Assembly (NCBI GenBank): GCA_022844205.1
Contig: JALHMF010000001.1
Span: forward strand, 244,018 to 308,017
Direction: 5' to 3'
Source of the DNA: Xanthobacteraceae bacterium
GTDB taxonomy: Bacteria > Pseudomonadota > Alphaproteobacteria > Rhizobiales > Xanthobacteraceae
DNA length: 64,000 bases
Positions within the stretch are counted from its first letter, which is position 1. Every line of letters begins with the position of its first letter. Positions 9,514 to 37,815 of this stretch are shown in pieces. The notes below the pieces were generated by a model. It had not been told where the DNA came from. It saw only the letters and a program-made list of their open reading frames with translations, and made no database searches. Both the position numbers and the translations under genes were made by a program.

Positions 9514-9550
9514 GCGGGCGTAGTTCAGTGGTAGAACGACAGCTTCCCAA
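9514..9550 (+). repeat. attL: duplicated 5' half of tRNA-Gly
   Basis: A 37-nt exact copy of tRNA-Gly positions 1-37 (through the anticodon loop, ending TTCCCAA), matching 37741-37777. Identity starts and stops at these bases: T versus C before, T versus G after. It is a pseudo-tRNA, since no T-arm or 3' acceptor follows. This is the core attachment duplication of the 28-kb element. Confidence 0.9.
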
Positions 9551-9670
9551 TCAGACGACGCAATTTGTATAGCGCATCATAGATGATGATTAGCCCCGAT
9601 TTTTGGGGCTTTTCTCATGTTACATTATTCGTAGCTGTACATTGAAACACGCAGCTACACCCATCCAATC

Positions 9671-9689
9671 GGTGCCTGAGAGGTGCCTG
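9671..9689 (+). repeat. paired GGTGCCTG repeats, left arm sites
   Basis: GGTGCCTG at 9671-9678 and again at 9682-9689, 11 bp apart, just before the integrase start. The same 19-bp block is present in the same orientation at 37689-37707 near the right end. This position suggests both integrase binding and autoregulation. Confidence 0.6.
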
Positions 9690-9692
9690 GCC

Positions 9693-10826
9693 ATGAGAGC
9701 CATGCTGACTGATGTCAGCGTGCGGGCTCTCAAAGCGCCAGCACGCGGACAATACACTATATGGGACACGAACAGTCCTGTTGGTGTCCGCGTCTCAGAG
9801 GGAGGCGCTAAATCGTTCATCGTCCTCGTCGGCAGCGGCAAACGCCGCATGATTGGCAAGGTCGGTATCATCACGCTAGCGGAAGCGAGAATCGAAGCGA
9901 AAAGAATTCTCGCAGAAAAAACGCTCGGCATCTCAAAACCAAAAGCGTCATCAGTTACTTTCTCGACCGCTACGGCGATTTTCCTTGAAGAAAACTACAG
10001 GGGAAAAAAGCCAAGAACGAAAAAGGAAACGAAGCGTCTACTAGAACGGCACTTCGCGCCAAAATTCGCAAAGAAGCCGGTCTCCGAAATTACCGACACT
10101 GATATCGGAGAAATTCTCGCAAAACTCGCAAGAATACCGAGCGAGCAACTTCACGCCTTTCGTGCGGTTCGAACAATGCTCAAGTGGTGTACGCGACCTC
10201 CCCGTCGCTACATCACTCACAGTCCTCTCGAAGGTTACGAGCCGCCCGGAGAAGATCGAAAAGGCACGAGGGTACTTTCTGATAGCGAGCTTTCAAAGAT
10301 TTGGTACGCAGCGACAGGCCGCTATGGCGGCATGGTACGGCTTCTGATTCTTTGGGGGACTCGCAATGGAGAGACCGCTCGCATTAAGCGTGCTTGGATT
10401 GAAGAGAATGTGCTGACTATTCCCGGTGAAGTAACGAAAAATAAGCGAGCCCACGCAATTCCTTTGCTTCCGTTCGCTCGTTCAACCCTCATCGGTCAAT
10501 CTAAGCGCGGTGCGTACTTCTTTCCTGGCAAAGACCTCGACACCCATTTCCACGACGGCTCTTGGGGCAAGCTCAAGAAAGAGCTCGACCAGAAAGCCGG
10601 CGTGAAGAATTGGCAACTTCGAGACATCCGACGGACGTTCCGCTCCAACATGGCAAAGCTCAAAGTGCCACGAGAAATAGCTGAAATTCTTCTGAATCAC
10701 GTTACAGGTGCGAATAGGAATGACCTCGACGAGATTTACGACAGGTACGACTACCTGCTGGAAAAGAAGGAAGCACTAGCCAAGTGGGAGAAGCGGCTGC
10801 GCCAAATTCTGAATAAGAAACAATGA
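9693..10826 (+). CDS. tyrosine integrase of the tRNA-Gly element
   Basis: A 377-residue site-specific recombinase. An N-terminal arm-binding domain of the DUF4102 kind (LTDVSVRALKAPARGQYTIW, then GVRVSEGGAKSFIVL) is followed by a core-binding region (about 95-190) and the catalytic domain. The domain shows Arg in WGTRNGETARIK near residue 223, a box II LRDIRRTF in which the usual His is Arg, His in LLNHVTG, and nucleophile Tyr in EIYDRYDYL near 350. It should cut at the anticodon-loop half of tRNA-Gly and drive integration and excision. ATG 9693 is chosen; the frame is open from 9603, but that extension would cover the GGTGCCTG arm repeats. It is monocistronic with a strong terminator overlapping its stop. 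Confidence 0.93.
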   Translation: MRAMLTDVSVRALKAPARGQYTIWDTNSPVGVRVSEGGAKSFIVLVGSGKRRMIGKVGIITLAEARIEAKRILAEKTLGISKPKASSVTFSTATAIFLEENYRGKKPRTKKETKRLLERHFAPKFAKKPVSEITDTDIGEILAKLARIPSEQLHAFRAVRTMLKWCTRPPRRYITHSPLEGYEPPGEDRKGTRVLSDSELSKIWYAATGRYGGMVRLLILWGTRNGETARIKRAWIEENVLTIPGEVTKNKRAHAIPLLPFARSTLIGQSKRGAYFFPGKDLDTHFHDGSWGKLKKELDQKAGVKNWQLRDIRRTFRSNMAKLKVPREIAEILLNHVTGANRNDLDEIYDRYDYLLEKKEALAKWEKRLRQILNKKQ

Positions 10827-16090: not shown

Positions 16091-17290
16091 TCATGAGCTG
16101 TCGGCCCTCCGAGCATGGTAAGGGCGTGAGTATGGCCCATCGAAGGTCTCCACGGTCTTCATGCGACCGCCGCAGCATGGGCAGGCTGGCGGCTCGAAGA
16201 CTGATGCGTGCTCCGCGTGCTCATCGCGTTTGGTGTGATCGGATTCGGCGCTGGGAACATCGAGGAGCGTTCGACACAGCACGAGCTTGTCAGCTCGGTG
16301 CCCATTCGCAAAGAGGCCGTAGTGGCGGATGCGATGAAATCCTTCCGGCAGGACATGGAGTAAAAAGCGGCGCATGAACTCGCCAACGGCGAGCTTCATG
16401 ACCTTGTTCTTGTGGTCGGCATTCTCACGATAGTCCTTCCAGCGGAAGCTGACATGGGTGTCTGTCAGATCGACCAACCGGCTGTTGCCGATGGCGACGC
16501 GATGGGTGTAGCGCGCGAGATAGGCCAAGACTTGACTCGGGCCTGCGAATGGACGCTTGGCGTAAACGACCCATTCCTGCGTGCGCAGGGGAGCGAGGTA
16601 GGCCTTGAATGCTTCCGGGTTGCTGAGTGAGCAAAGATCAGAAAAGAACTTTAGTTCTTCCGCGGCGTGCAATGCTTGAAGACCTTCGAGAAATAAGCGC
16701 CGGAACAAACGTGAGAGCACGCGAACCGAAAGAAAGAAGTTTGGCCGGCATCGAACCCACCGATCACCATCCGGAGAGATTCCACCGGCCGGCACGATGC
16801 AATGCACGTGCGGATGATGATTGAGGTTCTGGCCCCAGGTATGCAGGACGGCGGTAAGGCCAACGACGGCCCCGAGGTGCTGAGGATCAGCAGCGATGGT
16901 TGTGAGCGCCTCAGCCGCAGCCGTGAACAAGAGCCCGTAGACCTTGGCCTTGTTCTGGTAAGCGATCGCACCGATCGCGGCTGGCAGAGTGAACACGACG
17001 TGGAAGTACGGCACCGGCAGCAGCTCGGCCTCGCGCGCTTCGAGCCAGGCTTGCGCCGCGGTCCACTGGCACTTCGGACAGTGCCGATTGCGGCAGGAGT
17101 TGTAGGCGATGCGCGTGTGCGCGCAGTCATCGCACCGCTCGACGTGCCCGCCGAGCGCAGCAGTACGACATATCTCTATGGCCGTCATGACGCGCCGTTG
17201 GGCGAGGCTCAGATGGGCCTCGTTCGCCGCGCGCCAGCCGGCCCCGTGGCGGCGAAAAACATCCGCCACCTCCAGGATTGGCCGGGGCAT
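16091..17290 (-). CDS. IS91 family transposase (HUH rolling-circle)
   Basis: A 399-residue rolling-circle transposase. An N-terminal zinc ribbon (ERCDDCAHTRIAYNSCRNRH, then CPKC) binds DNA. The HUH metal-binding motif is HPHVHCIV near residue 160, and the candidate nucleophile tyrosine lies in YLARYTHRVAIGN near residue 260. A second cysteine cluster (CPCCGGRMKTVETF) is near the C-terminus. Length and order match intact IS91/IS801 transposases, so the gene looks complete. It is preceded 10 bp upstream by a tyrosine recombinase and is probably co-transcribed with it. It should move DNA by one-ended rolling-circle transposition and may have brought in or exported the neighbouring cargo. Confidence 0.92.
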   Translation of the reverse strand: MPRPILEVADVFRRHGAGWRAANEAHLSLAQRRVMTAIEICRTAALGGHVERCDDCAHTRIAYNSCRNRHCPKCQWTAAQAWLEAREAELLPVPYFHVVFTLPAAIGAIAYQNKAKVYGLLFTAAAEALTTIAADPQHLGAVVGLTAVLHTWGQNLNHHPHVHCIVPAGGISPDGDRWVRCRPNFFLSVRVLSRLFRRLFLEGLQALHAAEELKFFSDLCSLSNPEAFKAYLAPLRTQEWVVYAKRPFAGPSQVLAYLARYTHRVAIGNSRLVDLTDTHVSFRWKDYRENADHKNKVMKLAVGEFMRRFLLHVLPEGFHRIRHYGLFANGHRADKLVLCRTLLDVPSAESDHTKRDEHAEHASVFEPPACPCCGGRMKTVETFDGPYSRPYHARRADSS

Positions 17291-17300
17291 AGCCAGCTCA

Positions 17301-18164
17301 TCAGGTCGGCGCTGCCATCTCCATGTTCAGGAGTTCGAGCGGGCTCTGGACTTGCCGGATGGTGTTGATCGCCACACGGGCATAGCGGGTGGTGGACGCA
17401 ATGTTACGGTGGCCGAGCAAATCCTGAATCACGTGAATGTCGACGCCCTGTTCCAAGAGATGGGTGGCGAAGCTGTGGCGCAACGTGTGCACGGTGACTG
17501 TCTTGTCGAGACCTGCGGCCAGGGCCGCCTTGCGGCACGCTCGTTCCACCGATCGCGTCGTAATCGGCCTAACCGGGTCAGGGCCAGGGAAAAGCCAATG
17601 CTCAGGGTGGGTCTGCTTCCAATAGGCGCGCAGGATGCCGAGCAATTGCTCGGACAGCATGACGTAGCGATCCTTGCGCCCCTTGGCCTGCCGAATAGCA
17701 ATGACCATGCGCGCGCTGTCGATATCGCGGGCGGTCAACTTCACGGCCTCGGAGACACGTAAACCTGCGGCATAGATTGTAATGAAGATCGTTCGCATCT
17801 GAAGATCGGTTGCCGCCTTCAAAAAACGCACGACTTCGTCCCGTGCCAACACGGCTGGCAATGTGTCTTCCTTGCGGGCATAGGGAATCTGCTCGGATAT
17901 GTGCTTCTGCCCGAGGGTCGTGCCGTAGAAGAATCGCAACGCTCCCATGATTGGGTTGATCGAGGTGGCTTTGAGCCCGCGAGAAATGAGGTGAAGTCGA
18001 TAATCGCGCACGTCCTCAGAAGTAAGCTTGTCGGGAGAGCGTGCGTGGAAAATGCTGAAGTTCGCTACAGCGCGAACGTAAATCTTTTGAGTGCTCGGCG
18101 ACATGTTGCGGATCGTCATGTCTTCGATCATGCGCTGACGCAGCGGCGTCATCTGTTCGGTCAT
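17301..18164 (-). CDS. tyrosine recombinase accompanying the IS91-type transposase
   Basis: A 287-residue phage-integrase-family protein. The N-terminal SAM-like core-binding domain (MTPLRQRMIEDMTIRNMSPS, VRDYRLHLISRG) is followed by a catalytic domain with AAGLRVSEAVKL (Arg), HTLRHSFATHLLE (His-x-x-Arg), LLGHRNIASTTRY (His and nucleophile Tyr). All catalytic residues are present. Such XerC-like recombinases are regularly paired with a subset of IS91 transposases and may resolve or circularise transposition intermediates. The start at 18164 is chosen because MTEQMTPLRQRM opens the conserved domain; the upstream codon at 18203 adds an unrelated leader. Confidence 0.88.
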   Translation of the reverse strand: MTEQMTPLRQRMIEDMTIRNMSPSTQKIYVRAVANFSIFHARSPDKLTSEDVRDYRLHLISRGLKATSINPIMGALRFFYGTTLGQKHISEQIPYARKEDTLPAVLARDEVVRFLKAATDLQMRTIFITIYAAGLRVSEAVKLTARDIDSARMVIAIRQAKGRKDRYVMLSEQLLGILRAYWKQTHPEHWLFPGPDPVRPITTRSVERACRKAALAAGLDKTVTVHTLRHSFATHLLEQGVDIHVIQDLLGHRNIASTTRYARVAINTIRQVQSPLELLNMEMAAPT

Positions 18165-18346
18165 GAAAATACTCCTGTCGGATGAACTGCACTGAACGTG
18201 CAATCCTGACAGACAGAACGACCGCTACCGACAGGCGCAGGCTCGGCTCCAGATATTCGATGGGGCGCGAAAGTAATCTTGCGCGACGTATCCAACATGG
18301 CTCTGTTGAGCCATATTATCTGATCCCCTCTCGGCAGGCTTGTAAG

Positions 18347-25335: not shown

Positions 25336-26589
25336 ATGCAACTCGGCCTAGTCCGACAGTTTGACCCGCATCTTCGGGAGGAATTCTTCACGCCGTTCGA
25401 ACTTTCCGAAGAACGGCGCCTTCAGCATTTGTTTGTGATCGGTCGTACTGGCACCGGCAAGAGCACGGCGCTCAAGAATTTTATTCTGCAGGACATCGCG
25501 TCCGGCGCCGGCTGCGCATTTTTCGACCCGCATGGCGACGACACACTACAGCTCCTTTCACTGGTTCCCCCCAGCCGCCAGCAGGATGTGATCCTGTACG
25601 ATCCTTCCGACTTCGACTTCCCCATCGGCTTCAATCCCCTGCACAAGGTGCCCTTGCAGCGCCGCCCGTTCGTCGCTTCGGCGGTGGTTGATTGCTTCCG
25701 CGCCATCTGGGGTCACTCGTGGGGACCTCAGCTGGAGATGTTCGTATATGCTGGTGTCGCGGCACTGCTCGACCGGCCCGATGGCAGTCTCATGGGCCTG
25801 AAATTCATGCTCACCTCGCCGAGCTACCGCGCGCGGGTGCTGGCCGACGTGCAGGACCCGGCGGTACGGGATTTCTGGGAGACGGATTTTGAGACCCACA
25901 TGCCGGAACGCGAACAGCGCGAACGCACCTTGTCGACTTTGAACAAGATCGGCGCGCTAATAGCCGACCCCGCCATCCGCAACTCCATGGCCCAGGCAAG
26001 GACAAAAATCGACTTTGGGGAGATATTTGAGCGGCGAAAAATCTTCATTGCGCGCCTGCCGCAGGGCGAACTCGGCATCGAGAAGTCGTCACTCATCGGC
26101 GCGCTACTGCTGTCGAATTTTCATTTGAACGCGTTGCGCAGAAAGGATCGCGCGCCGTTTCATCTCTATCTCGATGAATTCCAACATTTCGGCAATAACA
26201 CGGTCATCGAAATGCTGTCCGGTATCCGCAAGTTTGGTGTCTCGCTGACGCTCGCCTGCCAGTATCTCGACCAACTCTCCCCCGCTACGCGTGCGGCCGT
26301 CCTTGGCACGGTCGGCACCATGCTCGCCTTTCGAACGGGAGCGCCTGACGCCGAAATGCTCTCAGCGGAATTCGAGTTGAACCGCGACGACACGGCGCTA
26401 TCCGCTTTGCCGCCCTACCGGGCCTACGTCCGCACCGACCACACCGTTGAATTACGGACGCAGCCTCTTCCGCAGTCCGGGCGCGTGCGAACGGCGCGGA
26501 AAATTCGCGACCGCTGCCGCTCGCAATATGCACTTCCCCGGCAAATCATCGAGGAGCGCATCGCTCGCTTCATCCGGAATACCGCTTGA
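25336..26589 (+). CDS. VirD4/TraG-HerA-like DNA-pumping ATPase (first of two)
   Basis: A 417-residue P-loop ATPase of the type IV coupling/HerA group. Walker A FVIGRTGTGKSTALKNFIL lies near residues 33-51 and Walker B FHLYLDEFQHFGN near 275. In between is GAGCAFFDPHGDD, in which the conserved D-P-H-G/x-D matches conjugative coupling proteins, and later SLTLACQYLDQL gives the sensor-like Gln. The protein lacks the N-terminal membrane helices of VirD4, so it is soluble. It would translocate or pump double- or single-stranded DNA during transfer or replication of the element. It is followed by a small gene and a second ATPase, forming a transfer module with the relaxation protein. The start ATG has no strong ribosome site. 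Confidence 0.85.
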   Translation: MQLGLVRQFDPHLREEFFTPFELSEERRLQHLFVIGRTGTGKSTALKNFILQDIASGAGCAFFDPHGDDTLQLLSLVPPSRQQDVILYDPSDFDFPIGFNPLHKVPLQRRPFVASAVVDCFRAIWGHSWGPQLEMFVYAGVAALLDRPDGSLMGLKFMLTSPSYRARVLADVQDPAVRDFWETDFETHMPEREQRERTLSTLNKIGALIADPAIRNSMAQARTKIDFGEIFERRKIFIARLPQGELGIEKSSLIGALLLSNFHLNALRRKDRAPFHLYLDEFQHFGNNTVIEMLSGIRKFGVSLTLACQYLDQLSPATRAAVLGTVGTMLAFRTGAPDAEMLSAEFELNRDDTALSALPPYRAYVRTDHTVELRTQPLPQSGRVRTARKIRDRCRSQYALPRQIIEERIARFIRNTA

Positions 26590-26643: not shown

Positions 26644-27021
26644 ATGTATCTGCTGCTGCGGCGCGACCAGCGGTCGAGCCTGATGGGAAAGATTATCTTC
26701 CAGCTCGATGTGCGCGCGGAAATTTCCGACGAAGAATATCAGAGCATTACTCGCTACCGCCTCGGTGACACCATCCTCTATACCAAAGGCGAAATCATCG
26801 ATCCGGGTTCAGGTCTGCTCGGGCTCGCCTCCCGCTTGACGTTCAAGGCGATGAATATCTCCGTATCCGTCGATGATTTGATCCGGGGCAAGCGCATCGA
26901 GTGCAAGGACATTGTCGAGATGTTGGCTGTCGAAGCCCAAATTAAAGAAGCGGCCGCCACTTTCAAACAGGTTCTGAACGCAGCCATGTATTTTGGCGGA
27001 GAAGAAGCGATTGCGATCTAA
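26644..27021 (+). CDS. hypothetical protein between the two DNA-pumping ATPases
   Basis: A 125-residue protein with a strong ribosome site (ATGGAGGGGG) ahead of its ATG. The N-terminal half is beta-type (KIIFQLDVRAEISDEEYQSI, RYRLGDTILYTKGEIIDPGS); the rest is helical (IVEMLAVEAQIKEAAATFKQ). The C-terminus overlaps the start of the second ATPase gene by 29 nt, which suggests coupled translation and a stoichiometric partner. No family is recognised with confidence. By position it could be a structural or adaptor subunit of the DNA-processing complex. Confidence 0.75.
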   Translation: MYLLLRRDQRSSLMGKIIFQLDVRAEISDEEYQSITRYRLGDTILYTKGEIIDPGSGLLGLASRLTFKAMNISVSVDDLIRGKRIECKDIVEMLAVEAQIKEAAATFKQVLNAAMYFGGEEAIAI

Positions 27022-29167
27022 ACCGCAGAATATTTTCCATTGGGCGGTCAAGAACTTGTTCCAATGGTCCAACCTACGCGCGGCCTTCGTCGGCTCGCTG
27101 GTCGGTCGAGAACGACGGGAAGTGGAAGCCCTCTATCGTCGCGTGAGTAAAACCTACGCGGCGTCACGCTTTGCTGAAGAATATGCCGAGCTTGATTTCG
27201 TGCGGGAGCTTGCAGAAGAAGCAGCCCGACGCGCTGGCCGTGTTCCAAGCGAAGCTTTGCAAGAAGCCATGCACGAAGTGGTTTGGCAGCTTTTGATGCA
27301 GGAGCCGGTACTGTACGGCCTCCCGGAACGGCCCGACTTCGATCATCTCTCGCTCACGCAGTTGCAGGAGTGGCGAAAGCTCTTGATCATCAAGGAGCGA
27401 GTGCTCGGCGATCCGGATTATTACGTGGAAGTCTGGCGCGAGAAGGTTATTCGCCTCCTAGAGGGATTGCTGCACCACTTTCCGTCATTCGCCTTTGCCG
27501 AAGCGGATGAGCAGGATTCCAACGCGACTTACACTGTTTCACTTATCGACGTGTGTGCTCGTCCCGCCGAAGCCATCGAACGTTCGATGGCGACTTTTTA
27601 TGACGACGACATCGTGCGTCCGGGGCTGTTTGATCTGGTTCGCAATCGTTTTGATGACAATCTCTGTCGCGCTTCCGGACTTACGCGGGACGAAGCCTTG
27701 CGCGCGCGTTCGGTGGTCTCCCCCACCACGGCGAAAGACATGGACCCGCGCGAACTTGTGGCAAATTTTCTGGCGGGTACGCCGTTCGCGGAATTCTTCT
27801 TGGCCGAAGTACCCTTCCGCATTCCGGAAAAGTCCCGCTTCGAGCACATGCATATTCTGGCAGGCACCGGTCACGGCAAGACCCAGACTATCCAGCATCT
27901 GTTGACCGCTGACATCGCGCGAGTAATGCGTGGCGAGGCGTCGGTCGTGGTGATGGACAGCCAAGGCGATCTCATCAGGAATATTTCTAGCCTCAAAATC
28001 TTCGCCGACCATCCCGAAAAACTCTGTCTGATCGACCCCCACGACATCGAACATCCGGTCGCACTCAACCTGTTCGACATGGGTATGCGGCGGCTGGAGA
28101 CCTATTCCCCTCTCGACAAGGAGCGGCTGCGCAATAGTGCGAAAGAGCTGCTCAACTTTGTGCTGAGCTCATTGCTCGGCAGCGATATGACCAGCAAGCA
28201 ATCTACGCTGTTCGACTTCACGCTGGCGCTGATGCTGGAGATTCCGGGTGCCACCATTCACACTTTCCGCGATCTCATGCAGGAGGGTGCGCTCGCGAAG
28301 TATCAGCAATATGTCTCGAAGCTCGACGACACCGCACAGGATTTCTTTAAATACGAATTCGACGTGAAGAAAGGCCAGTTCGAGAACACCAAACGCGAAG
28401 TCGTTCGGCGGCTCTACGGCATTCTGTCCAACAATACCTTCCGCCGGATGTTCTCACACGAACATTCGAAGCTCGATCTCTTCTCGGAGATGAATTCAGG
28501 CAAGCTTATCCTAATCGATACCGCGAAGGACTTGTTGAAGGAGAACGGCACCGAGGTGTTCGGGCGTTTCTTTATTGCCTTGATCGCCAACGCCGCTCAG
28601 GAGCGGGCCACGCTGCATCCCTCGCAACGACTTCCCTGTTTCGTCTACATCGACGAGTGCCATGATTATATTTCCAAGGACGCCAATGTGACCGCGATCC
28701 TGGAACAGGCCCGCAAACAGAAGGTAGGCTTGGTGCTCGCTCACCAGTATCTTTCACAGATCAGCCAGAGCGTACTGGAAAGCCTGTTTGCCAATACGAG
28801 TATTAAATTCGTCGGCGGCGTGTCGGATCGCGATGCCCATACCCTGGCGCGTGAACTGCGTTGCACACCGGCCTTCATTCAGCAGCAGTCGACCGGCTCA
28901 TGGGCTGCTTACGTCAAAAACCATACGCCAAATGCGATCTCACTACGGATTCCATTCGGCACCATGGAAGCACTAGAGCGAATGGATCAGGCCGAACGTA
29001 TTGAATTGAGTGAGCACATGCGTAGCCGTTATGCGGCATTGCCCGCACCTATTCATGTCGAGGAGACACAATCGCCAGCTAAAGAGAGCCCGACGGCCGC
29101 GAGTCCGCAACCTAAAACTTCATCTTCCCCGTCCGAGCCATCCACGGACGCCAGCAAGGAGTGGTAG
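26993..29167 (+). CDS. VirD4/HerA-like DNA-pumping ATPase (second, with N-terminal extension)
   Basis: A 724-residue protein starting at TTG inside the previous gene. The first 270 residues are helical and novel to me (RREVEALYRRVSKTYAASRF, LMQEPVLYGLPERPDFDHLS). The ATPase core begins near residue 275: Walker A ILAGTGHGKTQTIQHLL near 290, VVMDSQGDLIRNI (an S-Q-G-D in place of the D-P-H/K-x-D of its neighbour), Walker B CFVYIDECHDYI near 552, and the sensor GLVLAHQYLSQI. The tail is Pro/Ser/Thr-rich. It should act as a DNA translocase; two unequal ATPases of this group in one operon suggest a hetero-oligomeric pump. It is followed by the relaxation gene. Confidence 0.85.
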   Translation: MAEKKRLRSKPQNIFHWAVKNLFQWSNLRAAFVGSLVGRERREVEALYRRVSKTYAASRFAEEYAELDFVRELAEEAARRAGRVPSEALQEAMHEVVWQLLMQEPVLYGLPERPDFDHLSLTQLQEWRKLLIIKERVLGDPDYYVEVWREKVIRLLEGLLHHFPSFAFAEADEQDSNATYTVSLIDVCARPAEAIERSMATFYDDDIVRPGLFDLVRNRFDDNLCRASGLTRDEALRARSVVSPTTAKDMDPRELVANFLAGTPFAEFFLAEVPFRIPEKSRFEHMHILAGTGHGKTQTIQHLLTADIARVMRGEASVVVMDSQGDLIRNISSLKIFADHPEKLCLIDPHDIEHPVALNLFDMGMRRLETYSPLDKERLRNSAKELLNFVLSSLLGSDMTSKQSTLFDFTLALMLEIPGATIHTFRDLMQEGALAKYQQYVSKLDDTAQDFFKYEFDVKKGQFENTKREVVRRLYGILSNNTFRRMFSHEHSKLDLFSEMNSGKLILIDTAKDLLKENGTEVFGRFFIALIANAAQERATLHPSQRLPCFVYIDECHDYISKDANVTAILEQARKQKVGLVLAHQYLSQISQSVLESLFANTSIKFVGGVSDRDAHTLARELRCTPAFIQQQSTGSWAAYVKNHTPNAISLRIPFGTMEALERMDQAERIELSEHMRSRYAALPAPIHVEETQSPAKESPTAASPQPKTSSSPSEPSTDASKEW

Positions 29168-29269
29168 AATTATCTCTACTTCGCACGCCGGTGCATGGCG
29201 GTGCAGGATTGTCCTCCACACCGCATCGCTCACGTTTACAGCGCGGGCAGGGCAGGTATTCGAACATGT

Positions 29270-30253
29270 ATGGAAACAAACAAACGCCGATCACGTAGCC
29301 GCCGGACCCCGAGAGGAAAGTCAGCGCGCATCACGCCGCGTCATTTGCAAATTCTCGGTATCCTGCAACGATATCGGTTCCTCGACGCCAAGCACATCTA
29401 CGCGCTAATCGGATCGAACAACAGTAACGTGCGCAGTGCATTGAGTGATCTGTTCCATGAACACAGTCTGCTAAATCGCCTTCCGCAACGCGCTTTCATG
29501 CGCGATCCCCTCTACGATCCAGAAATCTATGAATTATCGGAGGCGGGTGCGGAATTGCTGTTCCAGCGCGGTGAACCTTCACATGCCGCGACCTGGTTGA
29601 AGCAAGGCCGTTATGGCGCAAAGACGTTGGCAGCTCATAATCTAACAATTTGCCATGTCGTGGCGGCAATCGAGATAGCGGCAGAACGAGACGGCATTCG
29701 GTTCATTCCTTGTTCGGAAATACTGCAACGCTCGCCGCAAGCAACCCAAGCGGCACGGCAGCCATGTGCCATACCGGTATCGATCTCGCATCAATTCCCA
29801 AACGGCAGGACGCAGCATTCCGATATACCTATCATTCCGGATGCGGTGTTCGGACTGCAATACCCCGACAAGTCGTTCCGCTGCTTCGCGCTTGAGATTG
29901 ACCGCAATACCATGCCGCTTACCCGCACGAATCTCGACGAAACCTCTTACTTGCGTAAACTCCTGCAATATCGCGAAGTGATTTCACGCGGGGTCTATAA
30001 GATGCATTTCGGCATGACGGCGACGCCAATGCTTCTCCTTACGATCACCACCAGTGCCAAACATTTAGACGGGATCAAGTCCTTGCTGCGCGACCTCGCT
30101 GGCGAAAACCAGTGGAAGCGGGCTTTCCTGTTCAAAGCCGAACCGAGCTTAGGCAGTTTCGAGCGCGCGCCCTCACCGGCATTGTCACTGTTCGAAATGG
30201 GTTGGGAGCGCGTCGGTAATCCGCCGTTTTTCATCAACCGCATTGAAAATTGA
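29270..30253 (+). CDS. replication-relaxation family protein, second copy
   Basis: A 327-residue homologue of the 4117 gene product. The N-terminal winged-helix pair (ITPRHLQILGILQRYRFLDA, ALSDLFHEHSLLNRLPQR) is followed by YELSEAGAELLFQ, AHNLTICHVVAAIEIAAE, VFGLQYPDKSFRCFALEIDR-NTMP and LLLTITTS. The order and spacing are those of Replic_Relax (PF13814). Such proteins may act on superhelicity or nick processing at replication or transfer origins. ATG 29270 is chosen because the conserved domain starts soon after; the frame is open from 29195. The pairing of this family with HerA-like ATPases is repeated in related elements, as the remnant at 4.1 kb also shows one. Confidence 0.8.
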   Translation: METNKRRSRSRRTPRGKSARITPRHLQILGILQRYRFLDAKHIYALIGSNNSNVRSALSDLFHEHSLLNRLPQRAFMRDPLYDPEIYELSEAGAELLFQRGEPSHAATWLKQGRYGAKTLAAHNLTICHVVAAIEIAAERDGIRFIPCSEILQRSPQATQAARQPCAIPVSISHQFPNGRTQHSDIPIIPDAVFGLQYPDKSFRCFALEIDRNTMPLTRTNLDETSYLRKLLQYREVISRGVYKMHFGMTATPMLLLTITTSAKHLDGIKSLLRDLAGENQWKRAFLFKAEPSLGSFERAPSPALSLFEMGWERVGNPPFFINRIEN

Positions 30254-30327: not shown

Positions 30328-31065
30328 CTACTTAGGTTTTGAATTATGTTGTTTTAGTCTTTCATCTATTTCTTTCTTTAACTTGATAAGAGATTCTTCC
30401 GTGAACTTATCGAGTATGTTTTGCTCATCCTTCGTAAACTCTCGATACCTTGTCGTGCTTTTTCCGCTCGGAGAAATAAATTCAATCTCCTGTTTTGCAG
30501 TTGGCCCAAGAACAATTTGTGTAACTTTATCTTCGTCTTCCGGGCGCAAGATGTGTTGCTTAAACGACACTCCGAACTTTGTATTAAAAGTAGCCGCTTT
30601 GTTGAAAGCTAAACGACCAATGACGCTGACAGCGCTAGTCGCCAAGCCTCCAGAAGGATCAACAAACAAAGCAATCACTGCAGGCGATGAATCCGCGGCA
30701 ATCGCTTCTAAGCCATCCATTAATTTTCGAAAATTTTCCGGGTTGGAAATGTAGACTTTTCCGTTGGCATCTTCGAATGCCAAGATCCACCAGTCTCGGC
30801 CTGTTGTAAAAAATCCGGTGTAGTAGTCGACATCTTTTTGTGGAGAAGTGGTAGAACCAGAATTTATCGAAGACCAAGAAAGCTCTTGATCAAACTCATC
30901 ACTGTATTTGTGAAGAACAGTAATCTTCTTCAGGTCCATTCCTGTCTTATTGACGACTTCAATCTTCGCAGTTCGTTTTTTTGTGTCGAGTTGCGACCAC
31001 GCCTCACCTGGAATTACCAATAACAAACCTGCCAGCGTAGCCTGCAGCAAAAATTTCCAATGCAT
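30328..31065 (-). CDS. secreted protein, unknown function (possible beta-sandwich domain)
   Basis: A 245-residue protein with a typical signal peptide (KFLLQATLAGLLLVIPGEAWSQ), so it is exported. The mature N-terminal half has IEVVNKTGMDLKKITVLHKY and the tail of that domain YTGFFTTGRDWWILAFEDAN. This reminds me of the small PUD/Daf-2-upregulated-type beta-sandwich (as I recall; not verified). The second half is more polar and helical with FTEESLIKLKKEIDERLKQH. It is AT-rich compared with the backbone and sits 75 bp after the amidohydrolase gene on the same strand. The pair is probably acquired cargo. Confidence 0.65.
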   Translation of the reverse strand: MHWKFLLQATLAGLLLVIPGEAWSQLDTKKRTAKIEVVNKTGMDLKKITVLHKYSDEFDQELSWSSINSGSTTSPQKDVDYYTGFFTTGRDWWILAFEDANGKVYISNPENFRKLMDGLEAIAADSSPAVIALFVDPSGGLATSAVSVIGRLAFNKAATFNTKFGVSFKQHILRPEDEDKVTQIVLGPTAKQEIEFISPSGKSTTRYREFTKDEQNILDKFTEESLIKLKKEIDERLKQHNSKPK

Positions 31066-31140
31066 GAGTTCGCCTCCTGTAGGACTCGTTAAAATCGTCC
31101 GCCGTCACATGCCGCGTCCAAAGACTAGGTTTCCCCCATC

Positions 31141-32940
31141 CTAATCGAACACAGATAACCAGCTAGAATCTGCGCGCGCGTCTGAATAAAATTTTGCGAG
31201 TCGAATCCGATTCAAGTTTGACCCGTTTAGACCAAGGAAGTTCACTGAATTTCGAAACATTATATCCTGATCGCTCAAATCGATTTCAGTTAGGAACGCT
31301 GCGACAATTTCTGGATAAAGTTGCTTCTCTGTTACCGCGGGAAATTTTCGCTCGAGGCCAGTCATGATCCAATCCGAACCATAAATGAGCTTTGTTTTTG
31401 CGGCTGGAAACGTCCCGCAAAACTTAATCATCGCTTTCTTAATAATTTCGCGTTCACAGTTGCTATTTGACCGGCACGCATCTGCGCCTAACAGCTCATT
31501 AAAATAACTTATGTCAGCGTAAACTTGAGCGCTGGGAAATTTTTGCCAAAGACGTCCAATTTCCCATTCCCACGTCTCTGTCAATTTCGCTTCGTGGAAT
31601 ACTTCGTTTTCGTCGAACGCCTCCTCGAAGCCGCCGAAATGAGCCAAATTCAATCTCAAATCTGGGTACTTCGACAAAACCGCAGCCCAAAGTTTTGGGT
31701 TGGCCCTTTTTCCATAACCTGGATTTACGCCGTATGAATCGTTGCTATGTGACATGATTGGAACCGCAGCCTTGCTACTCCACTCATATAATTTATTCAG
31801 CGCGTCATCGATTAATTTTCCCGGCATATTGCCAAGCGCGCCAGGCTTGTTAGTTGGGTCAATGCACGTTGCCGAGTCACCCGGTGATCCAGGGCCATAT
31901 CGCACCCAGCATGGAAATTCTGCGCCGGTGGCTTCATTGTTAGCTGGGCTAAATCCCATCGGCGGATACAGTTTGATTCCAACAAACCCCTTTTTTTCCA
32001 CTGCATATTGCACGATGGCCAGCGGCGACTGAGCAGGAGGAAGATTAAGTTTGTTGTGTATGGCTTCGCGCAGCGGATCGAAAGCTACAAAACCGTGTAT
32101 TTTTGGCGAAGCTGCATCCGGCTTCCGAATAGAAATTCGTGAAAGTACATCAACCTGATCGCGCATGGATGTCGGCTCATCAACATCCAACCATTTCGTA
32201 TAATCAACCAATGCAGGTGTAAGTAGTACCGCTCGACCACGATGAATTTTTTGAAGCTCTTCCGCCAATTCATATCGATAGCGAGTTAATAAGCAGCCCC
32301 ATCGCAAATAATAGCCGAAATGTCCGCCTGAAAAATCATAGAGATGTCGAGCGAGATAGTCTGATTCTTGCCAATTCTCGTGATTATACGCTTGATCATC
32401 GTTATTCAAAATGTCACCAAGCGCAAACCCTTTTACAAAATACTTCACCGGAAATGCTTCGCGATGCATCAACCCAATTACAATATTCTGAAGGAAGTAC
32501 TCATGACCTTTCAATTTAGGTCCAAGAGTTCTTTGCTGCTTGATGTCCTCAATCATCGTTGTAAGCAGTTTTAGGTCTTGAGATCGAATTGTTGCTGAGC
32601 CTCTTTTTGAAGCTGGGTTTGCTTCAATCTTATCGATTTCTTTTATCTCATCGCTTGCGCTAACTGCAGCGTCATTCAGCTTTCCTGCGAGATACTTCAG
32701 GAAAAAATCGATTACTTCATTGTATTCTTTCGCGGCTTCTCGAAATTTCGGATTATTCGGAATAATGCACTTCTCGACGAATCCCACCATCGGCAAATCG
32801 CGGGCATTAAATAAATGGCAGTGCGCATCGATAATATTTGGGAGCTTAAGTGAAATGCGCTGTCCAAAACTAGCATGCGAAAAAAATAACTGACTTGTCG
32901 CAACTGTGGCGGCACCCGCCAAAAATTCCCTGCGCTGCAT
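31141..32940 (-). CDS. Tat-exported amidohydrolase-like protein
   Basis: A 599-residue protein beginning MQRREFLAGAATVATSQLFF, a twin-arginine (RRxFL) signal. After cleavage the enzyme starts with NIIDAHCHLFNARDLP, where H-C-H is the first metal-binding strand of the amidohydrolase TIM barrel. Later signatures are LNLAHFGGFEE (a His typical of strand 6), YADISYFNELL and YGSDWIMTG (the catalytic Asp of strand 8). It lacks an obvious carboxylated Lys motif. It may hydrolyse an amide, lactone or related bond in the periplasm; the substrate is unknown. The gene is markedly AT-rich, so it is probably recently acquired. It heads a two-gene operon with the secreted 30328 product. Confidence 0.8.
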   Translation of the reverse strand: MQRREFLAGAATVATSQLFFSHASFGQRISLKLPNIIDAHCHLFNARDLPMVGFVEKCIIPNNPKFREAAKEYNEVIDFFLKYLAGKLNDAAVSASDEIKEIDKIEANPASKRGSATIRSQDLKLLTTMIEDIKQQRTLGPKLKGHEYFLQNIVIGLMHREAFPVKYFVKGFALGDILNNDDQAYNHENWQESDYLARHLYDFSGGHFGYYLRWGCLLTRYRYELAEELQKIHRGRAVLLTPALVDYTKWLDVDEPTSMRDQVDVLSRISIRKPDAASPKIHGFVAFDPLREAIHNKLNLPPAQSPLAIVQYAVEKKGFVGIKLYPPMGFSPANNEATGAEFPCWVRYGPGSPGDSATCIDPTNKPGALGNMPGKLIDDALNKLYEWSSKAAVPIMSHSNDSYGVNPGYGKRANPKLWAAVLSKYPDLRLNLAHFGGFEEAFDENEVFHEAKLTETWEWEIGRLWQKFPSAQVYADISYFNELLGADACRSNSNCEREIIKKAMIKFCGTFPAAKTKLIYGSDWIMTGLERKFPAVTEKQLYPEIVAAFLTEIDLSDQDIMFRNSVNFLGLNGSNLNRIRLAKFYSDARADSSWLSVFD

Positions 32941-34498: not shown

Positions 34499-34540
34499 CC
34501 GACCAAATGGTGTATAAAGGTCACAGGATGGGTTTTGGAA

Positions 34541-36361
34541 ATGCCAATCACGTCTATCAAAAAAATTAAAGACCCAATCCATGGGTACGTAAATTATTCC
34601 CGGATCGAGGAAGGCATCCTAGCGCATCCGCTTGTTCTGCGACTACACCATATACGTCAAAACGGTGCCGCGTTTCTTACTTATCCCAGCATGCGAGTAC
34701 ACCGTTTCGAGCATTCACTCGGCGCCATGCATATTGCGGGGGATATGTTTGACCACGGCATTCGGTTTTCTACAGATACGACTGTGGCCGCGGCACTACC
34801 AGATGTACTAGGAGAGCTGGACTTTGATATAGATAAGATCGTGAAGGCAATTCAACGCAATTCCTCGCGGCAGGGTGACGCGACATTCGTTGAGCAGGAT
34901 AGTCTATATAAACTCTACCATCTCAACCAAATTGAGAATAAAATTAAATTTGCGCAGCTTTTAATGTTTCAAGCGGTCCGCTTGGCTGCGCTTGTCCATG
35001 ACATAGGGCACCCACCTTTCTCGCACACATTTGAGACCGCACTCAAACAAAAGGATCCAAGTCTTTATCGAAATCATGAGGTAGTTGGCGTAGAGTTATT
35101 GAGTATTATCCTCAAAGATATTGACGACAACAATCTCTTCGTGCGCGGCGAATTTGATCTTGCACAGCCAGCGGCGGGTCTCGCCGCAATTATTCTCGAT
35201 AAAGATAAGTTATATCATGCAAAGGTGAAAGGTCTAACCGACATCGTAAGTAGCGATATCGATTGTGATCGCTTGGATTACGTGAGACGAGACGCGCAAG
35301 CTGCCGGCTTGACGACAAATGCTTATGATCTTGGTCGGCTTTACGACTCAGTAAAACTCGTTCCATATCGCGACGCTGCCGGTATATCCATCCACCTGCA
35401 ATGGACCGCTCAAGCGCTTAGCGTCGTTGAAGCCTTCTTCAGCGTGCGCTTTCATCTTTACCGATGGGCGTTGTGGCACCACGCAGTTGTCCGCCAAAAT
35501 ATGGCTCTAGTGATTATTGCCGCCAGCCTACATGACCTATGGAATCGCAAACTACCCTATCTTGCGTCGATCCAACCAGACTTGGATGATATTTTCGGAC
35601 TTGCACTCGACCCCAGCCGACGGCGTGACTACTGGTATTTCACGGATTACTTCCTGCTTGCTAAACTCGCGCATATCTTTTCATTTCTAGATAGCAACCG
35701 AGATTGGATCGGCCAGGCCAATCAAGCAGATCAGGGGAAAAAGGAATGGGGCATCGTCGCTGATCTACACAAATTTCTGCTGACCTTTCTTCACCGAGAC
35801 AAGCGTTGGCTTACCCCTTTCTGGAAACGCCCGGACGACTACGAGGCGTTCGCCAGTGAAGTTGTCGGCCAGGGCGGCGAACGTTCACGCAACTTTAATG
35901 ATAAACTAGCGGACATGTACAGGAGGATCGCGCACAATGAAGCCAAACGCCTAAACCACGACATTTCGACTCTTGAGCGGGAGAAGAACTTCGTGGGGGA
36001 GTATTCCGATTATCTTGCAGGCGTATTTAATCGGACGATCGAGGATGAGATCAACAAGACGGCGAAGGCATCGCACTGCCGTGTGCGCGCATATTATCTT
36101 ACCAAGTTCTCCCCCATTCCACGCGACCTGCGACTCAAAAGCGATGGCGGTGAGCATGAGTTGAAAACGCTTTCTCCATCGGTGGCCGCTCTTGATAATG
36201 CCTGGAGGGCATTGCCCCATTTGTGGCTGTTCCGTGAATTTTATGAGTTTGACGAAGGTGGGGAAAAGACGAAATTGCCAGCTAAAGGGGGGGATCGAGA
36301 TCATCTGATCCGTGTTAAAAAGATAGCCGCCGATACGCTCAAGCGCATGCTGGCCGAATGA
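34541..36361 (+). CDS. HD-domain phosphohydrolase, SAMHD1/dGTPase-like
   Basis: A 606-residue protein with a COG1078-type opening (KKIKDPIHGYVNYSRIEEG). All four metal-ligand motifs are present: His58 in RVHRFEHSLGAMHIA, the His153-Asp154 pair in LVHDIGHPPFSHTFE, and the later Asp in SSDIDCDRLDYVRRDAQAAG, equivalent to the SAMHD1 I-D-x-D-x-x-D-Y segment. Enzymes of this group hydrolyse dNTPs to deoxynucleosides and triphosphate, often under allosteric control, and several restrict phages. The C-terminal 200 residues are helical and unassigned. ATG 34541 (with AGGATGG upstream) is preferred over the TTG at 34535. The gene is 7 bp ahead of a PurZ-like gene and surely co-transcribed. Substrate preference cannot be read from sequence. 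Confidence 0.88.
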   Translation: MPITSIKKIKDPIHGYVNYSRIEEGILAHPLVLRLHHIRQNGAAFLTYPSMRVHRFEHSLGAMHIAGDMFDHGIRFSTDTTVAAALPDVLGELDFDIDKIVKAIQRNSSRQGDATFVEQDSLYKLYHLNQIENKIKFAQLLMFQAVRLAALVHDIGHPPFSHTFETALKQKDPSLYRNHEVVGVELLSIILKDIDDNNLFVRGEFDLAQPAAGLAAIILDKDKLYHAKVKGLTDIVSSDIDCDRLDYVRRDAQAAGLTTNAYDLGRLYDSVKLVPYRDAAGISIHLQWTAQALSVVEAFFSVRFHLYRWALWHHAVVRQNMALVIIAASLHDLWNRKLPYLASIQPDLDDIFGLALDPSRRRDYWYFTDYFLLAKLAHIFSFLDSNRDWIGQANQADQGKKEWGIVADLHKFLLTFLHRDKRWLTPFWKRPDDYEAFASEVVGQGGERSRNFNDKLADMYRRIAHNEAKRLNHDISTLEREKNFVGEYSDYLAGVFNRTIEDEINKTAKASHCRVRAYYLTKFSPIPRDLRLKSDGGEHELKTLSPSVAALDNAWRALPHLWLFREFYEFDEGGEKTKLPAKGGDRDHLIRVKKIAADTLKRMLAE

Positions 36362-36368
36362 ACGTACC

Positions 36369-37427
36369 ATGATAACGATCGTTGTTGGCGCCCAGTACGG
36401 AGGGGAAGGAAAAGGGAAGGTCGCCGCATATTTGGCCTTCGCCGAACGCCCTGATTGTGCCTGCAGATGTGGGGGACCGAATTCCTCACATACCGTTGTT
36501 TGGCGCAACACGATACATCGCTTGCGGATGATGCCGACTGCCTCTGTCGTTCACACTGACATGGACGTTCTTTTTGGCGCTGGAACATTGATTCATGTTC
36601 CAACGCTATTTCGAGAGATTGGGGTAATTGGTTTTACGGGACGGATCATGATTGATCCCAACGCGGGGATCATTACGGAAGATATTATCGAAGAGCAGCG
36701 CGCTGATCCTCGATACGCTACGCTGGGTTCCACACTGACCGGCACGGGTTATGCGAGTGCGAAACGAAGTCTACGATCGCTTCCTCTAGCTAAAGACTGC
36801 CCCAACCTAGCGCATCTTTTAGGCGACGTGGCGGGCTATTTACAGAATTTAATAGCTCGTCGCGGCTCCGTGTTGATTGAAGGTCACCAAGGCTACGGTT
36901 TGTCAAATTATCACGGCGATTATCCTTTTACGAGTAGTCGTGATTCGACTGCGTCCAGCATGCTCGCCGAATTGGGGCTTGGTCCCATTCAAACAGATAT
37001 GAAAATTGTGCTTGCGACGAAATTGTTTCCAACACGAAATCACGCCGGCGCACTTCACGAAGAGCTTTCTCGTGCTCAGATCAATAATCTTGGCATCACT
37101 GAAGAAGGTGGAGGTGCATGGGATCTGCCGAACAGGCCAAGACGTGTAGGACTCCTTGATCTGACAATCGTCAAACGGGCCATTTTTGCTAATTCTGCTA
37201 CTGAAATTGCGCTTACGGGTGTTGATTATCTCTATAAAACAGACGCTTCTCGTACCGATATCGATGGGGCCAGTCGTGAGCTCTATACGCTTGTTAAAGA
37301 GATCGAGACTGTTGCAGAAATACCGGTTCGTTATGTGTCAACGGGACCAGACACTGAAGCGATGATTGATATGATTGTGGAGAGAAATGCCCGTACAAAC
37401 ATACGAGAATTTCGCCGGGCATCATGA
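36369..37427 (+). CDS. adenylosuccinate synthetase homologue lacking the catalytic Asp (PurZ-like)
   Basis: A 352-residue PurA-superfamily protein, short like archaeal PurA and phage PurZ rather than the 430-residue bacterial enzyme. The P-loop VVGAQYGGEGKGK (residues 6-17) has Gly12 where PurA has the catalytic Asp (GDEGKGK). His41 in CGGPNSSHT is kept, but the usual GGHNAGHT is changed to GGPNSSHT. EGHQGYGLSNYHGDYPF (171-187) then TSSRDSTAS resemble the archaeal/PurZ version. NRPRRVGLLD and ALTGVDYL are the usual base/GTP-site segments. PurA makes adenylosuccinate from IMP; PurZ makes 2-aminoadenylosuccinate from dGMP and also lacks the Asp. The change to Gly suggests a modified substrate. 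It follows the HD gene and ends at the right boundary of the element. Confidence 0.88.
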   Translation: MITIVVGAQYGGEGKGKVAAYLAFAERPDCACRCGGPNSSHTVVWRNTIHRLRMMPTASVVHTDMDVLFGAGTLIHVPTLFREIGVIGFTGRIMIDPNAGIITEDIIEEQRADPRYATLGSTLTGTGYASAKRSLRSLPLAKDCPNLAHLLGDVAGYLQNLIARRGSVLIEGHQGYGLSNYHGDYPFTSSRDSTASSMLAELGLGPIQTDMKIVLATKLFPTRNHAGALHEELSRAQINNLGITEEGGGAWDLPNRPRRVGLLDLTIVKRAIFANSATEIALTGVDYLYKTDASRTDIDGASRELYTLVKEIETVAEIPVRYVSTGPDTEAMIDMIVERNARTNIREFRRAS

Positions 37428-37740: not shown

Positions 37741-37815
37741 GCGGGCGTAGTTCAGTGGTAGAACGACAGCTTCCCAAGCTGTATGTCGCGGGTTCGATTC
37801 CCGCCGCCCGCTCCA
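37741..37815 (+). tRNA. tRNA-Gly(CCC), intact, with attR in its 5' half
   Basis: A 75-nt gene with a complete cloverleaf: acceptor GCGGGCG/CGCCCGC, D-arm with GTTC/GAAC, anticodon arm ACAGC-TTCCCAA-GCTGT (anticodon CCC), T-arm GCGGG-TTCGATT-CCCGC, encoded CCA. It reads GGG codons. Positions 1-37 are duplicated at 9514-9550. The 3' half is host DNA and the 5' half probably comes from the element, an unusual orientation since most tRNA-targeting elements rebuild the 3' end. A CTCTTC-GGT-GAAGAG hairpin right after the gene is its probable terminator. Confidence 0.97.

Follow-up and report, generated by a model that had tools for sequence, protein, structure and literature searches.

A recurring gene pair of a SAMHD1-like HD phosphohydrolase and a PurA-like ligase without the catalytic aspartate on an integrative element of a Xanthobacteraceae bacterium

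A stretch of 64,000 nucleotides from a Xanthobacteraceae bacterium (GenBank assembly GCA_022844205.1, contig JALHMF010000001.1, positions 244,018 to 308,017), in the following called the window, contains an integrative element whose last two genes encode a SAMHD1-like HD phosphohydrolase and a homologue of adenylosuccinate synthetase (PurA). Analysis of these two genes revealed that the HD and PurA-like pair is a real recurring unit. The PurA-like protein lacks the catalytic residue Asp13 and belongs to a clade of its own, sister to the lineage of the phage enzyme PurZ. Tentatively, we propose that the two genes form an anti-phage nucleotide system, in which the ligase, a relative of PurZ, would produce a guanine nucleotide modified at C6 and the HD enzyme would hydrolyse deoxynucleoside triphosphates (dNTPs).

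Family and Phylogeny of the PurA-Like Protein

PurZ is known from phages and is thought to be derived from archaeal PurA. The PurA-like protein of the window matched the Pfam family PF00709 (Adenylsucc_synt) with an E-value of 1.9e-43 and 149.2 bits, which exceeds the gathering score of 27. Its top match in NCBIfam was the archaeal-type PurA model PRK04293 with 311.2 bits, under the cut-off of 368. The PurA model TIGR00184 scored 180.9 bits (cut-off 395.55) and the PurZ model NF038379 scored 144.1 bits (cut-off 300). Thus, the protein reached none of these three NCBIfam cut-offs.

A protein search with the PurA-like protein yielded 185 homologues, of which the best 120, including the window's own truncated entry P0001, were counted. 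A P-loop with the sequence GGEGKG, that is, with Gly for Asp, was present in 115 of these 120. The remaining five had no readable P-loop; four of them begin downstream of it and one has a different N-terminus. As every listed homologue whose P-loop could be read (115) has Gly, a misread Asp was rejected.

A maximum-likelihood tree was constructed from 59 rows of our own selection, comprising 17 of the 120 listed homologues and 11 of the 17 loci L004-L020 described below; P0114, P0117, the masked archaeal L046 and L022 were left out. In this tree the proteins without Asp13, PurZ and the related phage protein PurZ0 included, formed one clade with a support of 100/99. Within it, the clade of the window protein (21 rows, 100/99) had as its sister group a clade (30 rows, 98/96) made up of phage PurZ, phage PurZ0, one protein of a viral contig and three cellular protein groups. 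Placed outside were the proteins that keep Asp13, namely archaeal PurA, bacterial PurA and a Rhizobium cluster protein. Consequently, the protein was not assigned as an ordinary PurA, given its scores below the cut-offs, its position outside PurA and Gly12 at the place of the catalytic Asp13. Membership in PurZ or PurZ0 was likewise rejected on the basis of the PurZ model score, the separate clade and the Gly, which is not Ser.

In the parts of PMC12884076 drawn on here, Ser in place of Asp13 is given for 100% of 147 phage sequences, and four archaeal sequences with Ser or Gly are reported as basal to PurZ. Cellular relatives without the Asp are therefore no complete novelty; as far as it was consulted, that paper does not describe the bacterial clades or the partners of these proteins.

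Active Site of the PurA-Like Protein

The P-loop of the protein reads QYGGEGKGK and the second motif GGPNSSHT. The latter had been noted in the original prediction as a departure from GGHNAGHT, which proved correct with one refinement: only the first His is replaced (by Pro) and AG by SS, and His41 is kept. Mapping to S-2L PurZ and to the PurA of the same genome revealed that Asn38, His41, Thr122, Arg136, Gln174 and Arg223 are kept. Changed residues are Gly12, which stands for Ser23 of PurZ and Asp13 of PurA, and Asn224, which stands for Val241 and Val273, respectively. Asp286 is located where PurZ has Gln308 and PurA has Asp333. For S-2L PurZ, the consulted sections of PMC8342488 describe Val241 as lying against the 2' position of the ribose and Gln308 as lying at the base of the ATP donor, and report a loop with the tip T273-T276 that contacts the aspartate.

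This aspartate loop was counted at a fixed spacing before the RR motif. The motif T/S-x-T/S was found in 34 of 39 comparison proteins versus 1 of 14 aligned clade rows (P0095). The five comparison proteins without it were three bacterial PurA proteins with Ala or Val in the first place and two viral-contig proteins. Among the listed homologues it was detected in 3 of the 115 readable ones (P0095, P0114 and P0117; 5 of the 120 were unreadable), and GG was present in the loop of 111 of the 120 and of all 23 HD-linked ones. With an earlier, narrower pattern 29 of the 39 comparison proteins had been recognized, and the clade matches were two stray ones (L001 and L003) and the true T-I-S of P0095; a looser pattern had recognized 37 of 39, but overlooked P0095 and hit L055 at a place outside the loop. 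At the position of the ribose-side Val, all 14 clade rows have Asn, and 33 of 36 comparison rows of the same alignment have Val.

Judged by these residues, GTP would serve as the donor and a guanine nucleotide as the acceptor, and a role for aspartate appears doubtful. Since the clade has mostly lost the aspartate loop and has Asn for Val, the plain PurZ reaction of deoxyguanosine monophosphate (dGMP) with aspartate may not be the whole story.

The HD Protein

The HD protein matched the Pfam family HD (PF01966) with an E-value of 2.9e-10; no Pfam match beyond the HD stretch and no SAM domain was found. A search with this protein gave 331 hits, of which the best 120 were counted. The first 31 (at least 197 bits, own entry P0121 included) were set apart from the rest (at most 144 bits) and are referred to as the HD clade. 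The motifs R-x-x-H, H-D and D-x-D-R-x-D-Y of SAMHD1-like dNTPases are all present in the HD protein. The corresponding residues (R55, H58, H153, D154, H157, D241, D243, R244 and D246) are invariant in the 34 rows of an alignment (A2) of the window protein with 24 of the 31 HD-clade hits and nine hits outside the clade, the latter with an identity of only 23-26%, and also in 25 HD proteins paired with a PurA-like protein. SAMHD1 was matched both by phmmer and by profile, and the profile E-values ranged from 3e-59 to 4e-33 for SAMHD1 and the bacterial SAMHD1-like structures 2hek, 2q14, 2o6i and 9mr6. Identity with DatZ, the small HD-fold enzyme of phage S-2L, was rejected (BLASTP against S-2L DatZ, E-value 0.26; 606 versus 175 residues).

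One member of the HD clade, P0137, which is paired with P0023 by a contig of identical length, carries an N-terminal class III nucleotide cyclase domain (PF00211) and a weak PADLOC match to PycC. This is a hint of signalling in this system.

Linkage and Distribution of the Pair

Linkage was measured as exactly identical length of the longest contig between the HD and PurA-like entries. By this measure 23 of the 31 HD-clade proteins matched a listed PurA-like homologue, compared to none of the other 89 listed HD hits. The contig of an Afifellaceae bacterium (L002; L056 and L078 are the same place) is among the 23; the window's own entries (P0121 and P0001) are not, though their genes are adjacent. 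Adjacency was read directly in the DNA at three loci, namely the window, L002 and a Devosia locus (L001), the last with a 4-bp overlap of the two genes. In all three the HD gene precedes the PurA-like gene. Furthermore, the pairwise distances of 25 HD and PurA-like pairs (the 23 linked ones, the window and Devosia) correlated with r 0.68, a value that was reached in 0 of 5000 permutations. The partnership is one-sided: the PurA-like gene often occurs without an HD gene of this clade. Over all 120 listed PurA-like entries, 25 are linked.

Members of the clade were rare. They were found in 2 of 397 genomes of the order, namely the own genome and that of L002, and at the class level in the own genome only among 385; at the phylum level the HD protein was found in the own genome only among 398. 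Additional pairs were looked for in further genomes and none was gained. No phage bearer of the clade was detected: scans of IMG/VR gave two distant matches with A1 and eight with the HD clade, and none of these eight had a PurA-like match at an E-value of 1e-3 in the fetched flanks. In phage records none of the 211 PurA-like matches reached 60% identity, and the 11 HD matches all fell short of 80% coverage. No paper on such a pair was found in the literature, as judged by titles and abstract openings.

These results bear on several claims of the original prediction, which had described two genes with a spacing of 7 bp at the right end of an integrative element, an HD protein of the SAMHD1 type, distinct from DatZ, with all metal ligands visible, and a PurA homologue related to archaeal-type PurA and PurZ with Gly for the catalytic Asp (GGEGKGK). 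Coordinates, repeats and integrase agree with the first statement. The invariant motif residues, the SAMHD1 profile matches and the poor DatZ match bear out the description of the HD protein, and the 115 homologues with Gly, the top match to PRK04293 and the sister position to the PurZ lineage that of its partner. The original prediction had also asked whether such pairs recur; the pair does recur, and here and in the L002 genome it is clearly on mobile DNA. Of the outcomes named there as refuting, neither of the two that sequence can address occurred: in the tree the protein lay outside PurA, and the HD partner is linked in other genomes. An identity as PurZ, in contrast, had to be abandoned, considering the sister position, Gly instead of Ser, 144 versus 300 bits, Asp286 and the lost aspartate loop. 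Thus, the sequence observation was confirmed, and of its interpretation the PurA homologue without Asp and the recurrence of the pair are supported and the PurZ identity is not.

The Integrative Element

The element has a size of 28.3 kb (9514-37777) and is bounded by exact 37-bp tRNA-Gly repeats. The pair forms its last genes at the right end (Table 1), on the same strand and separated by 7 bp (36362-36368). For the HD gene the open reading frame (ORF) tool gave a TTG start at 34535, six bases before the ATG. On the contig, two further copies of the repeat precede the window, at 219852 and 224714, which makes a total of three upstream of the tRNA copy. Because of these two extra copies, several elements are probably stacked at this tRNA-Gly.

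Table 1: Features of the element and of the gene pair in the window.
Feature	Position	Strand	Remarks
attL, left direct repeat, 37 bp of tRNA-Gly	9514..9550	+	
Tyrosine integrase of the element, beside the left repeat	9603..10826	+	
TrwB/TraG-like ATPase of the element	25336..26589	+	40% homologue close to the pair in L002; 38% homologue ~14 kb from the pair in Devosia L091
Second TraG/TrwB-like ATPase	26993..29167	+	
Replic_Relax protein of the element	29195..30253	+	28% homologue in L002
SAMHD1-like HD phosphohydrolase gene	34541..36361	+	ATG start, 606 residues; H58 / H153-D154 / D241, D243 intact
HD dyad H153-D154	34997..35002	+	Invariant in 34 aligned rows; coordinates via reading frame
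PurA-like gene	36369..37427	+	352 residues, without Asp13, sister to PurZ lineage
Gly12 codon, place of PurA catalytic Asp13 / PurZ Ser	36402..36404	+	
Asn224 codon, place of Val273 (PurA) / Val241 (S-2L PurZ)	37038..37040	+	Invariant in 25 HD/PurA-like pairs
Glycine-rich loop EGGGAWDLPNR, replaces T/S-x-T/S aspartate loop	37104..37136	+	
Asp286 codon, place of PurA Asp333 (PurZ: Gln308)	37224..37226	+	
attR, right direct repeat, 5' half of tRNA-Gly	37741..37777	+	
tRNA-Gly (CCC), integration site	37741..37815	+	

In L002 the pair adjoins an integrase at tRNA-Phe together with homologues of the element's ATPase (40%) and Replic_Relax protein (28%), and in Devosia it is located ~14 kb from the TrwB-like homologue (38%). 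The pair stands at the integrase end in L002 and at the far end in the window element; it may therefore move as a cassette. The host genome encodes a separate housekeeping PurA of 430 residues with GDEGKGK on a different contig, as well as PurB and inosine monophosphate (IMP) dehydrogenase.

A scan for promoters gave 3 sites where 4.9 were expected, 7 terminator-like sites were observed where 3.7 were expected, and the tRNA was the sole match of the Rfam scan. A type ISP restriction-modification gene lies directly left of the element (window 6284-9358). Inside the element, an IS91-type transposase adjoins a second tyrosine recombinase on the minus strand (16091-18203). An unusual cargo on the minus strand (30328-32940) consists of a PUD1_2-family protein and an amidohydrolase with a start that, by eye, resembles a twin-arginine signal.

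Comparison with Known Systems

The PurA-like protein shares with the phage 2-aminoadenylosuccinate synthetases PurZ of S-2L, phiVC8 and SH-Ab 15497 the PF00709 domain, the short archaeal-like form, the replaced Asp13 and the nucleotide-pocket residues N38, T122, R136, Q174 and R223. It differs from them in having Gly and not Ser, Asp286 and not Gln308, Asn224 and not Val241, in its replaced aspartate loop and in its sister clade. The PurZ0 proteins of the actinophages Archimedes and Ghobes (structure 7vf6) are relatives of PurA without Asp13 as well, but have a P-loop Ser and a T-V-T loop; their partners are Dut-like and NDT-like according to the consulted part of PMC12884076, not SAMHD1-like HD proteins. 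The best solved relative (183 bits) is the archaeal-type short PurA of Pyrococcus (2d7u/5k7x), which is of similar length. Asp13, a T-V-T-G-R loop and the Val are present there, however, and it falls outside the clade without Asp13. The aspartate-loop motif is common to PurZ and archaeal PurA and missing in the window ligase.

For the combination of a PurZ-type ligase with an adjoining HD-fold dNTP triphosphohydrolase the Z-cluster purZ-mazZ-datZ of S-2L is a precedent, as taken from portions of PMC8342488 and PMC8065100, where the HD enzyme is a dATPase. In contrast to that cluster, the HD protein of the window is unrelated by BLASTP to the 175-residue DatZ, no MazZ gene stands beside the pair, and the carrier is a bacterial element and not a phage. 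The Clover system is composed of two genes as well, for the HD dGTPase CloA and the nucleotidyltransferase CloB, and so combines an HD dNTPase with a nucleotide-making enzyme, as described in the part of PMC12265719 used here. The partner in the window is a PF00709 ligase, not a nucleotidyltransferase, and the role of the window pair in defence is a predicted one. With SAMHD1 and bacterial SAMHD1-like proteins the window HD protein has the HD core and all motif residues in common; unlike SAMHD1 it has no SAM domain. Identity with a known defence system modelled in PADLOC was rejected because matches of the pair were weak or missing.

Proposed Function

In the anti-phage nucleotide system proposed above, the ligase would begin with the GTP-dependent phosphorylation of the O6 of a purine nucleotide. 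The residues for this step, G11-K17, H41, Q174 and D286, which correspond to the P-loop, His41, Gln224 and Asp333, are kept. Gly in place of Asp13 would admit a 2-amino group, so that guanosine monophosphate (GMP) or dGMP and not IMP would be used. With the aspartate loop replaced, C6 may be attacked by an amine other than aspartate, or aspartate may be bound in a different manner; an N6-substituted 2-aminopurine nucleotide would result. The HD enzyme would remove canonical dNTPs and thereby free the new nucleotide from its competitor, as is the case for DatZ next to PurZ. Alternatively, the HD enzyme would be an effector gated by the ligase product, as CloA is by the product of CloB; both possibilities fit the sequence. 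An invading phage or plasmid dependent on the dNTP pool would bear the net effect. A conflict system appears the most likely kind of system because a two-enzyme nucleotide module is found here on mobile DNA, is rare and stands beside an intact housekeeping PurA. Also in favour are the linkage and the correlated distances of the pair, the catalytic residues kept in both enzymes, the precedents of Clover and the S-2L Z-cluster, and the deoxynucleotide-type enzymes encoded beside relatives with a replaced Asp13 (L004-L020, see below).

Several observations weigh against a defence system built on this pair. PADLOC gave no match for the PurA-like protein and only weak ones for the HD protein (dGTPase 25.7 bits, Cas3b 11.1 bits), and the surroundings of the Devosia pair look, by eye, like copper and redox genes and not like defence genes. 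The identical longest contig behind the count of 23 indicates one contig, not adjacency, and 8 of the 31 HD-clade entries had no such match. Among the 49 PurA-like entries on a longest contig of at least 10 kb, 17 were linked (window and Devosia included) and 32 were unlinked; none of the 25 listed entries of the NSKH type was linked to HD, and the Patescibacterial locus L003 had no HD gene. On the side of the ligase, the loop difference depends on an alignment across an insertion. P0095 retains T-I-S beside its GGG, so the loop change is not universal. P0114 and P0117 have the P-loop Gly and yet a full T-V-S/T loop, which makes the two changes separable.

Extending the proposal, the clade of the PurA-like protein may represent a new kind of purine C6-ligase, which has lost the catalytic Asp and the aspartate loop and joins another amine to a guanine nucleotide. 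The resulting undescribed nucleotide would be sensed, or made room for, by the co-inherited SAMHD1-type dNTPase, and the whole would be a mobile immune system, the cellular sister of the phage Z-base pathway. We regard this extension as rather doubtful; the T-I-S of P0095 weakens it slightly and leaves our estimate unchanged. A cellular pathway of the Z type itself, in which the ligase joins dGMP and aspartate to dSMP, host PurB and kinases produce dZTP, the HD enzyme removes dATP and 2-aminoadenine enters the DNA of element, host or invader, would agree with the loss of Asp13 as in PurZ, the sister position to the PurZ lineage, an HD dNTPase partner reminiscent of DatZ and the PurB of the own genome. 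It is nevertheless unlikely in view of the aspartate loop in 1 of 14 clade rows versus 34 of 39 others, the Asn for the ribose-side Val throughout the clade and an HD protein unrelated to DatZ. Moreover, a Pfam scan of the 17 larger ORFs of the window revealed neither a MazZ-like nor a DNA polymerase domain, and the genome of the Patescibacterial bearer (G003, the genome of L003, of unknown completeness) gave no match to PurB.

The lack of both PurB and IMP dehydrogenase matches in G003 argues as well against ordinary purine salvage or interconversion by a divergent adenylosuccinate synthetase-like enzyme, carried with a housekeeping-type dNTPase as metabolic cargo, as its product would lead nowhere in the usual pathway. 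The 311 bits with the archaeal-type model PRK04293 are in favour of such metabolic cargo, and so are PurA-like members without HD, one of them in a 0.7-Mb Patescibacterial genome without any other match to the PurA-like protein of the window. That score is below the cut-off of 368, though, Gly replaces the catalytic Asp in every readable listed homologue, the own genome already has PurA, PurB and IMP dehydrogenase, and at least 23 of 31 HD-clade proteins keep a PurA-like partner; we consider salvage improbable. The same one-sided linkage, in which at least 23 of 31 HD-clade proteins have the PurA-like partner and the PurA-like gene is often without HD, would be expected of a toxin-antidote pair, in which an HD dNTPase toxic alone is restrained by the PurA-like protein or its product and which serves maintenance of the element, not phage defence. 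The HD dNTPase of Clover is indeed toxic without its nucleotide-making partner, as stated in the portion of PMC12265719 consulted. But in the window, L001 and L002 the PurA-like gene stands second, behind the HD gene, and PurA-like genes without HD would have nothing to restrain, which leaves this explanation very unlikely.

With the tree, phage PurZ is placed within a larger group of bacterial and archaeal proteins without Asp13, several of which are encoded in recurring operons with dNTP-type enzymes. One clade of this group regularly has a SAMHD1-like HD protein as its partner, in the present case on mobile DNA. With these two proteins, both the question of where the Z-base pathway originated and the idea that bacteria gain immunity through altered purine nucleotides become directly testable.

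Other Relatives without Asp13

Two further arrangements were observed in the group without Asp13. At 17 loci from many phyla, archaea included (L004-L020), a gene for an RNase_H_2/DEDD-type exonuclease precedes the PurA-like gene (Gly type) in 16 of 17 cases; a dCTP-deaminase-like (DCD-like) gene follows in 16 and a deoxynucleoside-kinase-like (dNK-like) gene in 11 of 17, part of the query proteins for these counts having come from the same loci. The operon resembles a putative dNTP-modifying system. The second arrangement is a fusion of a kinase with a PurZ-like ligase of 532-562 residues and the P-loop GSEGKG, found in the order and class of the window organism (L028, L029, L030, L080-L085 and L087-L090). 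DUF7002 follows it in 11 of these 13 loci, and a small YfbR-like HD protein plus a 450-residue protein in 7 of 13. The fusion loci sit on rhizobial plasmids and alphaproteobacterial chromosomes, and the fusion of L083 is located near homologues of genes of the window element. From these two arrangements we infer that deoxynucleotides are the business of the group without Asp13.

Three single loci were also noted. On a Sinorhizobium medicae plasmid (L027:6296-10937) a YfbR-like HD gene, a PurA-like gene of the Ser type without Asp13 and a DCD-like gene form a cluster which adjoins a BilD-like gene (PADLOC, 1.1e-165), that is, a defence setting. A Rhizobium leguminosarum plasmid (L026:3392-14713) carries genes for FolE, QueC, QueE, 6-carboxytetrahydropterin synthase, IMP dehydrogenase, nitrile hydratase and PurB together with a PurA-like gene that keeps the Asp; the whole resembles a 7-deazapurine nucleoside cluster of the toyocamycin kind. 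Finally, a Patescibacterial genome (L097:1157-2167) encodes a PurZ0-like protein with the motifs GSEAKGK and TVTGKIRR.

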